Shown piece by piece: positions 10,035 to 16,712 of a DNA stretch of 47,053 bases. The position numbers and the translations under genes were made by a program. Location of the stretch: NCBI GenBank assembly GCA_017940265.1, contig JAGAYY010000029.1:1-47053 (forward strand), in the 5' to 3' direction. Below the pieces are notes generated by a model. It was not told the DNA's origin, ran no database searches, and saw only the letters and a list, made by a program, of their open reading frames with translations. Source of the stretch: Bacilli bacterium (GTDB lineage: Bacteria > Bacillota_I > Bacilli_A > RFN20 > CAG-826). Every line of letters starts with the position of its first letter. Position 1 is the stretch's first letter.

Positions 10035-10814
10035 TTATCCAAGAGCGATATCTAATACCATCATGAGCACAAAGCCCACGGCGAGACCAATCGTTGCTAA
10101 GTTAGAATGCTTACCTTCATTAGCTTCTGGAATAAGTTCTTCCACGACGACGTAGATCATCACACCTGCGGCAAACGCTAAAACAAATGGTAAGATAACT
10201 GATACTAGATATGTAATTAATATGGCTAATCCTGCGGCAAGTGGTTCAACCGCACCACTGATAAAACCATAAAAGAATGCTTTTCCTTTAGATTCGCCTT
10301 CTTCTTTTAAAGGCATAGAAACAATTGCCCCTTCTGGGAAGTTTTGTATAGCCATACCTATTGCTAAGGCTAAGACAGCTTGTTCACTAACTTGACCCGC
10401 TAAAGCGGAAGCAATAACAACACCAACCGCTAAACCTTCAGGAACATTATGAAGAGTGACGGCTAATAACATCTTAAATGTTTTAGAATATTTATCTTTT
10501 TGAAGACCTTCTTCTTCCTTATTGATGTGCATATGAGGCACAAGATAATCGAGAAGGAGCATAAAACCAACACCTAATAAGAAACCAATGCCAGGAAATA
10601 CATAAGCTTTTCAATCCCCTTTATCATAGGAATTAATTGCAGGTTGCATAAGTGACCAAATAGAAGCGGCTATCATCACACCACTAGCGAAACCTAATAA
10701 TACCTTTTGTAATTTAGGATTGATTTCCTTTTTTAAAAAGAAAACCATCGCACTACCTAAGGTTGTGCCCACTAATGGAATAATTAAGCTAATAATAAGA
10801 ATAAATGGTCTCAT
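10035..10814 (-). pseudogene. ZIP-family metal transporter split by in-frame TGA
   Basis: The two halves together form one ZIP/GufA-type transporter of zinc or related divalent metals. The N-terminal half (10614-10814) has two membrane segments with LLGFASGVMIAASIWSLMQP. The second half carries the metal-binding HNVPEGLAVGV and NFPEGAIVSMP motifs and MVLDIALG at the end. Between them the frame continues without shift across one TGA at 10611-10613: YDKGD, stop, KAYVFPGIGFLLGVG. The first Met of the second half (10562) lies inside a membrane helix and is not a natural start. Nonsense mutation, readthrough or a sequencing error would all fit. A His-rich loop (VPHMHINKEEE) is kept. Confidence 0.8.
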
Positions 10815-10855: not shown

Positions 10856-11686
10856 TTATATATTATCTATCTTCTTGTTCTTATCAAATATTTCTGGATA
10901 TGGGTTTTCTTTAGGATCAACATCAGAGAGTAAACATACTGCATGGTGGCATCTTTTTGCTAAATCTATTCTTTGTTCACTTTCACTTAGTGTTTCATCT
11001 TTATATAATGGTTCCCCTATTTTTAATGTAATAGCGACTTCTTGCTTAAAGATATGTCTTCTAATCCAAGAAGGTTTTCTGAAAGAGAAACCAATCGGTA
11101 ATACTGGTTTATTAAGGCGACACGCTAATGAAAAAGCCCCTGTATGAAATGGTCTTATATATGGATAGCATTCCCACATACTACCTTCCGCATATATTTG
11201 TAATATGCCACCTTCTTTAACATATTGTTCTATCGCTTTATTAGAAGCAACTTTACCACCTAAATTACCATCAGGAATAGGTACACCACCAACAAGTCTT
11301 GCTAAAGCACCATTTTCCCCTCTTATATTAGGAGCCCAGACTAATACTCTTGTTTCTTTTGGTTTGAGAGCTTTCATAATAGCGATATAGTCCCACATAT
11401 GGACGTGATTAGATATAGTAATCACCCCATTACTTAATTCATTTTTATATTTCTTTAAGTTTTTACGTCCTTTAATTCTTAGTCCCATATAAGGTATAGA
11501 TAATGGGAAAACAATTAAATAAAGCAATACACGCACCCACCATCTTTTAAATCTAAAACTTTTAGAATTATCAATATATGGATAGTTTTCATCAAAAACC
11601 AAACCATTATTCTTTTTAACCACTAAATAATGCTGATCAGTATATTCTGGATAGTTATATCTTGTAGAATGAGGATTATACATCAT
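10856..11686 (-). CDS. plsC: 1-acyl-sn-glycerol-3-phosphate acyltransferase family protein
   Basis: PlsC-type enzymes acylate lysophosphatidate to make phosphatidate in membrane lipid synthesis. The acyltransferase motifs are in order: NHVHMWD (HX4D) near residue 93, then GGVPIPDGN, then YAEGSMWECYPYIRPFHTGA (EGS in place of EGT/R), then PVLPIGFS. The N-terminal ~50 residues have one hydrophobic segment. There is no ribosome site before the ATGATG start and no good promoter. The start lies 14 bases past the T-run of the large non-coding RNA terminator, so expression by readthrough, or from the weak TGCTAT box seven bases upstream, is possible. Confidence 0.82.
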   Translation of the reverse strand: MMYNPHSTRYNYPEYTDQHYLVVKKNNGLVFDENYPYIDNSKSFRFKRWWVRVLLYLIVFPLSIPYMGLRIKGRKNLKKYKNELSNGVITISNHVHMWDYIAIMKALKPKETRVLVWAPNIRGENGALARLVGGVPIPDGNLGGKVASNKAIEQYVKEGGILQIYAEGSMWECYPYIRPFHTGAFSLACRLNKPVLPIGFSFRKPSWIRRHIFKQEVAITLKIGEPLYKDETLSESEQRIDLAKRCHHAVCLLSDVDPKENPYPEIFDKNKKIDNI

Positions 11687-11700
11687 TTAAAGGATAGCAC

Positions 11701-11731
11701 AAAAAAGAAAGAAGCGGACAATTTCCGCTTC
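11701..11731 (-). terminator. Terminator of the large non-coding RNA
   Basis: On the minus strand GAAGCGGA and TCCGCTTC form a perfect 8-bp stem (11711-11718 with 11724-11731) with a five-base loop, followed by TTTCTTTTTT (complement of 11701-11710). It is the strongest terminator in the window. Confidence 0.88.
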
Positions 11732-12208
11732 CTTCTTTTGAACCGTTGTACCTATTACTAGATACCCAAGTTAAGCTCTTTTGGCTGGTGGTGCTTCTTG
11801 TTAAAATGCGTTTTGAACTGAGTAGCGCATTAATGGCCAGCTTCTCTAAGATATTCTCTTTAGAGCTTTCATCCTCTTCGTCATGTCCGGTGCCGGGTTT
11901 ATTCTGCCAAGCTTTAACGCAGATGCCGGTGGCTATTGCTAGTCAGGTGGGATCGTACCGATAACCACTATTTCTAATGGTTCTTTGCTAGTGCAACCAG
12001 TTAACGACGGTTCTTTAATCCTTCGAGGTTCCCGAATCAGTTACGGGAAGTGGTTGACTTATCTAGTCTTAAGTTCTTTAGGCCTTTTCTTTGTAAGATT
12101 TCCATCTGGGTTCTCTTACTATCATCTCACGTTAGGTTGAGTAATGAGATTTAGGCTTTGCGGTTAGATTTTCTCTAACTCGCTTTGTTTTTCCCTCTTT
12201 GTCTTGTG

Positions 12209-12260
12209 TCCGGCGGTGGTTTTACGCTGTTAAACTCTAACTCAGCGACCACTGTAGCAG
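12209..12260 (-). repeat. Internal module repeat of the large RNA (copy 2)
   Basis: This 52-base block is 47/52 identical to 12509-12560, exactly 300 bases away. It includes GGTGGTTTTACGCTGT and CCACTGTAGCAG. Within the block, CCACTGTAGCAG-side and GGCGGTGG-side bases are partly complementary, so it is likely a conserved helix-loop element. Confidence 0.8.
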
Positions 12261-12508
12261 TGAGGTTTGCCGTTTGGATTTCCCGAAGGATTTCCAGCCT
12301 TTTGCGATCATTGACTGGGAACTTTAATCCCAGAGCCTTACTATCAACGTCGTTTTAGTGGTGATCGTCTTACTTTTAAGGCTAAGTTTTCGCCCATTCG
12401 CTCTCTGTGCCATTACTGACCAATTAACTTATTTCAGGTTTTGAGTTGCTTTAGCCTGAATGTGGGGTGTTGATGGGTAATTGGCCTTCATCATCCTCTT
12501 CGATCTTG

Positions 12509-12560
12509 TCGGGCGGTGGTTTTACGCTGTCAAACTCTAATTCAGCATCCACTGTAGCAG
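12509..12560 (-). repeat. Internal module repeat of the large RNA (copy 1)
   Basis: Partner of 12209-12260, nearer the 5' end of the RNA. A third, diverged module at about 11870-12021 keeps the GGATTAAAG and GAAGAGGATG landmarks but has lost most of this block. Confidence 0.8.
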
Positions 12561-12747
12561 GGAGGATTTGCCCTTGATTGATTACGAGAACCAATCTGCC
12601 AGTACAATCATTGATCCAGACTTTTTCTTTAATCCTGGAAACGCTTTAGCAACTTAGATACCTGCGTTGATTGTTTTACCTGGTCTTAAGATATATAAGA
12701 ATCTATCAATTCTTATAATCTTACTCACTCGGTTTCCCGGGTGGGTT

Positions 12748-12753
12748 ATTATA
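12748..12753 (-). promoter_or_regulatory. -10 box of the large RNA
   Basis: A perfect TATAAT on the minus strand, about seven bases before the first hairpin of the RNA. The -35 position (12771-12776) is poor; TTGCAA lies 22 bases away, too far for the usual spacing. Confidence 0.5.
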
Positions 12754-12984
12754 GTATGCGCTTATTTAATTTTTATTGCAACACTTTTTTAAAAATTTTT
12801 TAATTATTTTTTATATAAATTATTTTTTCTTGATTATATCTAACTTTTTTATTTGAAAAAAATTAACAATATTTTTAATTACTATGTTTTTTATTATGTT
12901 TTTAGTTATTTTTATCATTATTTATTTATATTTTTGTGTGGGCGTGGGCATGCGCGTATTTTCTTTTTATATATTTAAGAAAGC
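12754..12984. other. AT-rich interval without a gene
   Basis: Very AT-rich DNA between the large RNA and the terminator of the surface lipoprotein gene. A plus-strand frame at 12884-13072 has no ribosome site and biased composition, and I do not accept it as a gene. Confidence 0.5.
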
Positions 12985-13033: not shown

Positions 13034-15280
13034 TTATTTCAGCGTTGCGGTTCCGAGTGCACTATAGACTAAACAACCGCGAGATGAATTTTTAAGTGTC
13101 GTTTGGTAACTAGTGTTATTACTGAACGATACTGTATGGCTTCCGCTAGCGACGCTATTAGAAGAACATAAGGTTTTGGTGATTTTGGAATTTGTTGTCG
13201 GAGTCTTTTCCGTACCACCAAAGATGATGAGAGTACCATCACTTACGCTTGCAGCTCCATCTGTATCAAGAGCAGCTGCACCCATACTATTACCACCAGC
13301 ATTACCTGGACCCTTAACGATTACAACACCACCTGATTGGGTGAATGAGCCATTACTATCGATACCATCAGTATCGCCATTTGTTGGAACTTCAACATCT
13401 AGTAAGCCACCACTGACATTAATACTTGGGGTAGCATTACCACTAGTAGCGTTAACTCCATCATCTGTTGCATAGACGTATGAGGAGCCACCACTGATGT
13501 TGATGACATTAGCTTCTAAACCTTCATAAGCACTTTTAACATTTATTTCACCATCACTGATAGTTAATGAACCATCAGCATGGATTGCATCATCACTTGC
13601 TTCCACTGTGGTATTACCACCACTAATAATGATGTTACCTAATGGTGAAGATCCATTTTCAATAATGCCATCATTATTAGCGTGGATTGCATCATCATAG
13701 GCTTTAATATCAATTGTGCCTTTTTTAATATAGATTTCATTTTCCGCTTTAATGCCTTTAGCAGAGACATCGGCGGAATTAGTATTACCACTAGCGTAGT
13801 TACTCCAACTAGAGAAACTAATAGTTGTGTTATTAACACTGATTTGCACCATATCATAAGCACTGTTGAATGCTTTAGCGTCACTCTTTGCGTTATAGGT
13901 ATCTAATGAATAACTTGTGATATTACTGCCTTTGAAACGATATAAGGTGAAACTTGTCGCATCTGCTGGTTTTTCTAATTGATAGATGTAGTAGCTTCTA
14001 CTACCTCCACCGCCACCAAAACCACCAGGTTGTTGACCGCCACTTGATTGAGTACCTTTATATGTTGCTGGATACCAATTACCATTGATATATGCGGCAT
14101 ATGTATAAGCACCATTAGAGTAGGTATTTGAGTTCATCTTTAAGTAGAAGTTAGATGTACTTGTATCAATTGTTTCTCCACTATAGGAGGAATATTTATT
14201 AGTCTTAGCCACGAATGTGGTTGGGACTGTATCATCTAGTTGATCAATAATAGCATTATATGAAGCTTGAATAGCGTCACTCCAAGAATTAATGGTTAAA
14301 GAACCACCATTGATTGTGACATTACCTCTTTGATTACCTTTAGAGGAGATATCACTATTTTCTGAATGTAAGCCATCTCCACCACAAGAGATATTAATTG
14401 TGCCACTAGTAATGGTCACACTATCATTACCTCTAATACCATGGTTAACAGCGGTGATATTTAATGTTTGTTTTTGCACTTTAACATCATCTTTACCATG
14501 AATACCATTTAAGTAATTAGCGGTGATATTTAAGGTACCTGTACCTTTATGTTTTAAGTCACCATTACTAACGAATATCGCACCTTTACCTTGACCTTCT
14601 TGATCAGTAACATAGGCTGCACGGGTATCCTTTATGTTATTAGTGGTATCCTTTTTCGCGGATATTTCAACGGTATCACAATCTTCAACATAGATTGGTG
14701 AATTAGTGTTGTTTTCTAAAGTCACACCATTAAGTTCAATAACAATGACTTTTTCAGGTGCATTAACATAGATTTGTTTATAGTTTTTAGTAATGGAGAA
14801 TGTATATTCATCCGCAGTGGAATCATATGTGCCATTACTCAATGTGCTATCAGTAATGAAATAGATATCTGTATCTGTGGTATCTGGTTCATATGGAGTT
14901 TCTTCTTCCTCAGCAATGACTGTTAAAGCACATGTTGCGGTATAGCCGCCTTCTTTAGTTTTAACAGTAATAACAGATGTACCTACACTAATCGCGGTGA
15001 TAACACCATTATTAACAGTGGCCACACTTGTATTACTACTTGTCCAAGATACTTCTTTATTAGTCGCAGTGTCTGGAGTAACTGTCGCTTTTAATGTTGC
15101 GGATTTACCTTTATACATAGTGAGTTTTTCATAGCTAAGAGAAACACCGTTAACGGCTGTATCATTTTGACTTTGATTTGCTTCACCATGACTTGGATTA
15201 TTTGGTGAAACATTACATGATGAAATAGACATTGCTAGCAAAGCTAGACATGGCAATAAGATTAGTCTCCTGTTTTTCAT
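13034..15280 (-). CDS. Surface lipoprotein: Big_2 domain plus Cthe_2159-like beta-helix
   Basis: A 748-residue exported protein. The N-terminal signal ends in a lipobox-like MSISSC with Cys22. Residues ~45-122 are an Ig-like Big_2 domain (GVSLSYEKLTMYKGKSATL, then SWTSSNTSVATVNNGVITA). From about residue 135 on come repeated strands of the type ISGGNTTVEASDDAIHADGS, the pattern of the Cthe_2159 carbohydrate/acidic-sugar-binding family. A Gly-rich insert (GGQQPGGFGGGGG) lies near residue 420. It is last in an operon with DUF4956 and VTC-domain proteins, a conserved partnership in Firmicutes. Polymer binding at the cell surface is likely; the ligand is unknown. Confidence 0.82.
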   Translation of the reverse strand: MKNRRLILLPCLALLAMSISSCNVSPNNPSHGEANQSQNDTAVNGVSLSYEKLTMYKGKSATLKATVTPDTATNKEVSWTSSNTSVATVNNGVITAISVGTSVITVKTKEGGYTATCALTVIAEEEETPYEPDTTDTDIYFITDSTLSNGTYDSTADEYTFSITKNYKQIYVNAPEKVIVIELNGVTLENNTNSPIYVEDCDTVEISAKKDTTNNIKDTRAAYVTDQEGQGKGAIFVSNGDLKHKGTGTLNITANYLNGIHGKDDVKVQKQTLNITAVNHGIRGNDSVTITSGTINISCGGDGLHSENSDISSKGNQRGNVTINGGSLTINSWSDAIQASYNAIIDQLDDTVPTTFVAKTNKYSSYSGETIDTSTSNFYLKMNSNTYSNGAYTYAAYINGNWYPATYKGTQSSGGQQPGGFGGGGGSRSYYIYQLEKPADATSFTLYRFKGSNITSYSLDTYNAKSDAKAFNSAYDMVQISVNNTTISFSSWSNYASGNTNSADVSAKGIKAENEIYIKKGTIDIKAYDDAIHANNDGIIENGSSPLGNIIISGGNTTVEASDDAIHADGSLTISDGEINVKSAYEGLEANVINISGGSSYVYATDDGVNATSGNATPSINVSGGLLDVEVPTNGDTDGIDSNGSFTQSGGVVIVKGPGNAGGNSMGAAALDTDGAASVSDGTLIIFGGTEKTPTTNSKITKTLCSSNSVASGSHTVSFSNNTSYQTTLKNSSRGCLVYSALGTATLK

Positions 15281-15295
15281 ATTTTGGTCCCCCTT

Positions 15296-15994
15296 TTATA
15301 AAGTTTTGTCTTCTCCTACGAATGGTAAGATAGATATTTCTAAGTTACCGTTCTTTGTTCTTAATTCATCGATGAACTGTTTTTCTTCCCTTTTATTTTT
15401 AAGTTCAATCTTATATGAGAGTTTGAATAATGATCCCATCGCTGTTGTTTTAACTTCTATTAATTCATTATGTTTTAAGAAGCGAGCGAATGTATCGCTG
15501 AATACATCATCATACTCAAGAGATTCTGGAATGGTAATTTTAAGCATCTTTTCTTTATCGTATCTCATATTGTTAAATAAATTAGCACTTGTTAATAAGA
15601 GATAGATAATAGCGGTAAGAGCGGCAAATATGCCAGCGAAAGCTACATAGCCTAAACCACACACTAGGCCAATAGCGATACCCGCGAAGAGCAGTAATAA
15701 TTCTTCCGCTTTTGCATTAACGCTCCTAAATCTTACTAAGCCTAAGGCCACTGCTACTGTGGCGATTCTAACCGCTCCTGAAGTTGTACTATCTAGGAAG
15801 ATTGACACCATTGAAACTACAGTAGCGACAATCATTGGCATTAAAGCACTAGTAACAAAGAAACTTTTTGTGCCTTTCATTTTTAATGAAACCACTAAGG
15901 TAAATAGCATACTAATGGCAAAGGCGATAGCGATGATAATGATGGCCACAACAACCTTGTGTAGACCATTAAGCATATTGAACAATGAATCCAT
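15296..15994 (-). CDS. DUF4956 membrane protein
   Basis: 232 residues: four membrane segments in the first ~140 (VVVAIIIIAIAFAISMLFTL and others), then a soluble domain of about 90 residues that begins KEKMLKITIPESLEYDDVF. This is the DUF4956 layout; VRFRSVNAKAEELLLLFAGIAIGL in the membrane part is its most conserved stretch. The family has no proven function but travels with VTC-type polyphosphate polymerase domain proteins and Cthe_2159-like surface proteins, as here. AAAGGAG precedes the ATG, and the start overlaps the VTC gene by 26 bases. Confidence 0.85.
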   Translation of the reverse strand: MDSLFNMLNGLHKVVVAIIIIAIAFAISMLFTLVVSLKMKGTKSFFVTSALMPMIVATVVSMVSIFLDSTTSGAVRIATVAVALGLVRFRSVNAKAEELLLLFAGIAIGLVCGLGYVAFAGIFAALTAIIYLLLTSANLFNNMRYDKEKMLKITIPESLEYDDVFSDTFARFLKHNELIEVKTTAMGSLFKLSYKIELKNKREEKQFIDELRTKNGNLEISILPFVGEDKTL

Positions 15995-16712
15995 GAGCTA
16001 ATCTCCTTTCTTGAGTTTCAACACCATTTCGATACATTAATTTGTAAGCTTCTCCAACTTTAGAGAAACTGGTCTTGTAGATTTTATATTTACTAAGAAT
16101 AGATACTAACCATAGAGGTAATTCTTGTTGCACTTTGATTTCAAGAATTGCACTACCAGGTGGTAATAGTAGATTTCCATCCATCGATGTATGAAGATTT
16201 AAATCATCATTTCGATATCTAGGATTTTCATCGATAGTTAAGCGGATATTACCGTTCACTTCAGCGTATGAAGTTCTATCATAGATAATCATGATTTTAG
16301 GTTCTAAGACTTTTAAGTAATCACGGAAATAAGCAATTTCTCTAGTGACTTGATCGTCTTTTAAATTAACATCTTGATGATTAAGGAATTCTTCTGCGAT
16401 ATCTTCTCTTAAAGCAATTCTTCTTTTATAAACAACGCCTAAGGCTTTTCTTTTAAGCTCTAGGTAGACTGTTTTATTGTTATTTGCTAAGCCATAAGAT
16501 CTTAATCTAATCTTTTCTTTATAGACTGGCTTTTCTAATGATTTCCTAATTAATAAATAATCAGGAGTATCGTAATAGATAGAGGCGATTGAAGTCTTAC
16601 CATATTGATCAACTTCCATATGACCTTTAAGGGCATCTTGAAAAGCCACTAATTGGTCCTTAGTGAGAATGAATTTCATTTCATAACGTTGCATCATTGT
16701 TACGGCGTTCAT
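15969..16712 (-). CDS. VTC/CYTH-type polyphosphate polymerase domain protein
   Basis: 247 residues with the tunnel-fold landmarks of VTC domains: RYEMKFILTKDQ near the start, SIYYDTPDYLLIRKSL, KIRLRSYG, YLELKRKALGVVYKRR, LTIDENPRYR and ILEIKVQQELP. The alternating Lys/Arg and Glu residues would line the triphosphate tunnel. Yeast VTC makes polyphosphate; bacterial members next to DUF4956 are of unproven activity and may modify a surface polymer. It heads the three-gene surface operon. AGGAG lies 7 bases before the ATG. Confidence 0.85.
   Translation of the reverse strand: MNAVTMMQRYEMKFILTKDQLVAFQDALKGHMEVDQYGKTSIASIYYDTPDYLLIRKSLEKPVYKEKIRLRSYGLANNNKTVYLELKRKALGVVYKRRIALREDIAEEFLNHQDVNLKDDQVTREIAYFRDYLKVLEPKIMIIYDRTSYAEVNGNIRLTIDENPRYRNDDLNLHTSMDGNLLLPPGSAILEIKVQQELPLWLVSILSKYKIYKTSFSKVGEAYKLMYRNGVETQERRLAHGFIVQYA

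Follow-up and report, generated by a model that had tools for sequence, protein, structure and literature searches.

A triplicated, pseudoknotted non-coding RNA with cow-rumen-1 cores from a family of Bacilli

The window, i.e. the whole stretch of 47,053 nt analysed here, carries on its minus strand (11700-12745) a non-coding RNA gene of ~1,040 nt with a conserved promoter and terminator of its own. The RNA is made of three diverged copies (A, B and C) of one ~300-nt fold, and we consider this anatomy, a knotted three-unit RNA under selection, practically certain. As a whole it is best explained as a highly expressed, multivalent scaffold RNA of three like domains, a reading that we regard as about evenly balanced between right and wrong. 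Rfam describes cow-rumen-1 as a 61-nt sRNA, and only this 61-nt piece of the unit had been catalogued before. The host family is newly given here, together with the full length, the gene borders, the three-unit plan and the three pseudoknots per unit, and with all of these at hand the RNA is open to synthesis and testing.

Three diverged copies of one fold

Each ~300-nt unit starts with P1, followed by P2 around the hairpins P3 and P4 (P1-P4 form a base-paired cross), the variable hairpin P5, the core, P9 and P10. Unit A (12384-12685, minus strand; RNA 57-358), comprising P1-P4, the knotted core, P9, P10 and the tail, scores 167.9 bits with our unit model R1, unit B (12071-12383, minus strand; RNA 359-671) 142.7 bits, and unit C (11773-12068, minus strand; RNA 674-969), which is always the last unit, 133 bits. 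The core of every unit belongs to the cow-rumen-1 family (RF02946), with 80.3 bits in A (12495-12555), 77.4 bits in B (12194-12255) and 71.8 bits in C (11873-11932), all on the minus strand and all above the gathering score of 53.4. No other family reached its threshold in the Rfam scan. While the Rfam model is 61 nt long and has one stem, it accounts here for ~1/5 of a ~300-nt unit and occurs three times.

The positions of the Rfam core (12555-12495, 12255-12194 and 11932-11873) set the unit spacing at 300 and 323. The period of ~300-305 in the preliminary description is therefore not uniform, B and C lying 323 apart. The direct repeat that it had placed at 12209-12260 and 12509-12560 was found again as 62 nt of 89% identity at a spacing of exactly 300 (12207-12268 and 12507-12568). 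Its thrice-repeated motif, GGATTAAAG, occurs exactly three times on the minus strand (12627, 12322 and 12013) and is absent from the rest of the window; three chance matches are expected in 8% of shuffles, and the actual three lie in register. The units are preceded by a leader hairpin P0 with a GAUA loop (12688-12722, minus strand; RNA 20-54), whose inner stem is 97.7% paired with two-sided changes at 7 of 8 pairs. A 3' domain (11739-11799, minus strand) carries the conserved single-stranded AAGAAGCACCA (RNA 943-953) and CGGUU (RNA 997-1001), both present in most of 38 sequences and conserved to ≥95% at nearly every letter. A pairing of this CGGUU with 5' AACCG was discarded, since the latter is taken up by a GAAA-loop hairpin.

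The fold was derived from an alignment of 38 intact three-unit copies, all with the three units in register, whose identity to the window is 62-99% across aligned columns. The drawn structure comprises 231 pairs in 50 helices. Across the 38 copies 93.6% of its cells are paired, compared to 27-43% in slid controls with partners shifted by 1-3 columns, a margin that is partly built in since the structure was drawn from the same alignment. This does not explain the count of two-sided changes, found at 157 pairs versus 48-67 in the slid controls, and the covariation score is 0.380 compared to 0.165 for shuffled and 0.06-0.09 for slid alignments. An unguided, background-corrected scan of all column pairs brought out helices, including long-range ones, amid many scattered single pairs. 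Because pseudoknots are beyond RNAalifold, its full-length run recovered the structure incompletely. The single-sequence fold of the whole RNA was rejected; it pairs the units with each other and misses the knots. A 3-bp helix P14 was likewise dropped, since it crosses P12 and hardly varies. In unit C the scan marked an isolated covarying pair, RNA 850-866 (window 11892 and 11876), which is C-G or U-A with a z of 16.6.

In agreement with the lack of a coding frame noticed earlier, the longest ORF of this strand has a mean length of 56 aa over the 38 relatives versus 60 aa in shuffles, and indels among the relatives disregard the reading frame. A protein-coding gene or an antisense ORF was rejected. 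What the homologues keep is base pairing rather than a frame, which supports the preliminary description. The higher G+C content that it had reported is real as well (0.42-0.43 within the gene versus 0.30-0.34 in the flanks).

The order A-B-C, with three units, holds for all 38 intact copies. Arrays of five are complete at two loci, A-A-A-B-C (L052) and A-B-A-B-C (L068), and a third, cut by the contig start, reads A-B-A-B-C (L045). No complete arrays of two or four units were seen among the loci found, but departures from three are so few that the odd-number pattern may be due to chance. Single-unit-like RNAs occur as genes of their own at five loci (L046, L047, L055, L065 and L076) and score 40-66 bits with the unit model, compared to 118-185 bits for whole array units; three of them (L046, L055 and L076) are closed by a terminator-like hairpin of their own. 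In L055 and L065 both partners of the contact PKa (see below) are apparently missing together. L046 and L065 have upstream gene families in common (clusters 16, 34 and 35); for L055 and L076 the shared family, cluster 38, lies downstream. In the unit tree C forms one clade (support 100/99) and B nearly so (89/91), which dates the triplication to before the split of the genera. The position of the single-unit RNAs in this tree is unsure due to their long branches. A relation of the three ~300-nt modules by duplication, as suggested beforehand, is supported by the unit tree and by covariation.

The occurrence of one, three or five units per array, together with identical conserved unpaired elements across units, would also suit a sponge, whose triplicated transcript would titrate away a regulatory protein or RNA at one copy per unit. 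Known sponges of such a kind are repeats of short simple hairpins. Here, however, entire knotted folds persist, and the units have separated into the fixed classes A, B and C, which makes a sponge improbable in our opinion.

Knotted core and long-range contacts

In the core of each unit P8 crosses P6 around P7, forming an H-type pseudoknot. In unit A P8 (12573-12570 with 12514-12511; this and all following helices on the minus strand) crosses P6 (12567-12562 with 12498-12493), and its pairs change between GC and AU and between CG, UG and UA. P8 of unit B (12272-12269 with 12214-12211) shows CG, AU and GC, and its pair B470-531 reached a z of 11.4 in the unguided scan, whereas P8 of unit C (11960-11957 with 11891-11888) is invariant. 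Next to the knot each unit keeps the conserved unpaired letters GACA and CGAA, and A and B in addition AGUUA in the core loop.

Two further contacts are of long range. PKa is formed between the P3 and P10 loops. In unit A it pairs GUUGCU (12653-12648) with AGCAAC (12450-12445), is 95.2% paired and has two-sided changes at 3 of 6 pairs; in unit C AACUGA (12042-12037) pairs with UCAGUU (11821-11816), with 97.3% paired and again 3 of 6 pairs changed on both sides. The contact of unit B, GUUGA (12348-12344) with UCAAC (12140-12136), is 97.9% paired and hardly varies. PKb links the core hairpin loop L7 to the unit's tail, immediately ahead of the following unit. In A (12537-12532 with 12389-12384) it is 99.1% paired with two-sided changes at 4 of 6 pairs and unguided z values of 13.9 and 9.5, in B (12237-12233 with 12075-12071) 98.4% paired with unguided z values of 13.3 and 7.0, and in C (11914-11909 with 11778-11773) 96.9% paired, where the pair 828-969 appears as AU, GC, UA and CG. 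The unguided scan recovered PKa of A and C, PKb of A, B and C, and P8 of B. PKb is also present with six pairs in all five single-unit RNAs, none of which had been used to derive it.

The outer stems of RF02946 are fully supported in the 38 copies, while its innermost pairs compete with PKb. The Rfam pairs 201-208 and 501-508 of units A and B are Watson-Crick in 32 and 29 of the 38 copies, respectively, versus 36 of 38 for each of the PKb pairs 208-355 and 508-668. Since the 3' side of the innermost RF02946 stem pairs better with the unit tail, this stem may be misdrawn (window 12194-12255 and 12495-12555).

The partners of PKa and PKb match best inside their own unit. PKa of A is Watson-Crick to 0.93 with its own partner and to 0.11 with that of unit C, and PKb is fully paired with its own tail in 100, 92 and 97% of the copies compared to 29-68% with the tail of another unit. 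An exchange of contacts between A and B may occur, since their contact sequences are alike. By analogy, a covarying contact could also join separate molecules: a conserved kissing loop of ROOL, first taken as tertiary, turned out to be quaternary (PMC12286853). A homo-oligomeric particle of the ROOL or GOLLD type, with intermolecular loop contacts and a cage or ring in which the three units of each chain serve for docking, would fit the size, the several pseudoknots, the conserved strong promoter and the absent reading frame, all of which recall these two RNAs, whose conserved kissing loops are intermolecular. Against this, the contacts are matched within units, single-unit RNAs keep PKb, and folding in cis explains the data at least equally well; moreover, the likewise large raiA RNA is a monomer and the phage or tRNA setting is absent. 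We therefore consider such a particle rather unlikely, though the most serious competitor of a scaffold.

For the scaffold of three like domains, which we prefer, the units would fold autonomously as compact beads, packed with pseudo-threefold or chain-like order; an internal symmetry of the molecule is plausible. Each bead would display GACA...CGAA, the conserved unpaired element that adjoins the knot ahead of GAGG, as a putative binding site, present three times, and the RNA could hold a protein or another ligand in several copies, or build a particle. The scaffold is favoured because the conserved unpaired letters are the most promising candidate for a binding site that recurs from unit to unit; their role may instead lie in folding.

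Relation to other large RNAs

With the covariance models of GOLLD, ROOL, OLE and HEARO no match was obtained at E values up to 5 in window 11650-12800, nor at E up to 1 in the loci of ten relatives. The Infernal comparison proposed in the preliminary description thus gave no kinship to any of these four. Its view of a new class or a modular relative of a known one applies in so far as the RNA is new, modular and large, but the core was already catalogued as RF02946. In size and intricacy the RNA resembles the large ornate RNAs, but by model match it belongs to none of ROOL, GOLLD, OLE and HEARO. ROOL (RF03087) and GOLLD are also large and ornate, with several pseudoknots, conserved kissing loops and no reading frame (PMC12286853), and a covarying pseudoknotted non-coding structure is a resemblance to them, not membership. 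ROOL and GOLLD reside close to tRNA islands of phages and prophages, while this RNA is surrounded by cellular genes, has no tRNAs nearby and gave no match in phage and viral collections. For ROOL and GOLLD the literature consulted describes no internal triplication. OLE is likewise a large ornate RNA of Gram-positive bacteria, but a dimer of ~600-nt chains, and its model does not match here. The raiA motif RNA, another large structured RNA of Bacillota, was solved as a monomer, and no raiA-type family of Rfam matches the RNA. Our literature search found no paper naming cow-rumen-1 or RF02946; a fuller published description may exist.

GOLLD, ROOL and OLE are multimers of separate chains. A chain with three copies of its own domain raises the question of whether covalent fusion can replace assembly, as protein tandem repeats do, and the natural single-unit and five-unit versions are ready comparisons. 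We tentatively suggest, as a possibility that we doubt somewhat more than we believe, a first bacterial class of tandem-domain RNAs, in which a ~300-nt knotted domain, also occurring as a single-unit gene, would be fused into fixed chains of three or five units whose positions are specialised, C capping the chain and A and B lying within it, and these chains would assemble into a pseudo-symmetric particle with a role in the ruminant gut.

Gene borders, distribution and genomic setting

The promoter (12753-12781, minus strand) consists of a -35 box TTGCAA (12781-12776), a 17-nt spacer and a -10 box CATACT (12758-12753), and an A/T tract resembling an UP element precedes the -35 box. UP elements are a feature of strong promoters. 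By the strict pattern the boxes stand at equal positions in 33 of 41 readable loci, while the remaining 8 have TTG in place and differ in the -10 letters; across nearly all loci the consensus is an A/T tract, TTG-NNN, 17 or 18 nt and C/TATA-A/C-T. The preliminary description had noted a -10 box; comparison of the relatives identifies CATACT and not the adjacent TATAAT as the conserved one. Since the promoter is conserved and looks strong, the RNA would be abundant. At the other end an intrinsic terminator, found by sequence and minimum-energy fold, occupies 11700-11739 (minus strand). The long hairpin with a T tract (11739-11700) was noted before as perfect, which its pairing strictly is not; a terminator scanner reports the plus-strand face of this hairpin. 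A scan with the promoter pattern for further genes returned the RNA's own promoter as the sole match, because the pattern is too strict.

The RNA was found in 44 of 279 genomes of the window's order, all within the window's own Bacilli family, where 10 of 56 genera carry it; in the other 235 genomes it is absent or below detection. A pattern scan of 84,980 species, which covers units of the A and B kind, returned 36 stretches with titles of uncultured Bacilli, Bacillales or Erysipelotrichaceae assemblies, and the titles that name a source point to the ruminant gut, giving rumen, reticulum, reindeer, goat, buffalo or deer. No relatives beyond the family were found with RF02946 in 392 genomes of the phylum, and the unit model gave one weak match outside the family in 395 genomes of the class (L124, G667:C54:4292-4414; 25.4 bits, E 0.011). 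A phage, plasmid or viral origin was rejected, as collections of all three contain no match. Within the window's genus 10 of 16 genomes carry the RNA. It is an accessory gene, since genomes given as 93-95% complete are without it, and some genomes hold several copies.

No constant neighbour gene exists across genera; neighbours differ between genera and are mostly common to members of the window's genus. In the window the flanks are cellular, with an acyltransferase on one side and a Cthe_2159 carbohydrate-binding protein on the other, and ZIP, VTC and kinase genes also among the neighbours. The window contains no tRNA, and tRNAs lie near only 2 of 38 loci, ~5 kb away. Its own promoter and the varying neighbours define the RNA as a free-standing, independent gene, whose role would be other than that of a messenger, an antisense regulator or the leader of the next gene. 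This setting bears on two further explanations. A ribozyme or ligand-sensing RNA working via the knotted core would agree with the compact crossed helices enclosing conserved unpaired letters; no Rfam ribozyme or riboswitch model matches, however, and the RNA is not the leader of one gene, since neighbours and their strands vary, so that we see very little room for such a function. A mobile or selfish element of no benefit to the host could account for the patchy presence, the neighbours differing by genus and the multiple copies in some genomes. Yet no mobility-like neighbour gene family recurs across genera (few neighbours are named by Pfam), neighbours are shared within the genus and the structure is under strong purifying selection, making a selfish element hardly credible.

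Two observations concern the surrounding genes. At 13034-16712 (minus strand) the Cthe_2159 gene stands beside DUF4956 and VTC-domain genes, an order that recurs in relatives of the genus. The adjacent ORFs at 10035-10562 and 10611-10814 (minus strand) match a single family of ZIP zinc transporters, the former in its C-terminal and the latter in its N-terminal part, and represent a broken gene, a frameshifted gene or an assembly error.
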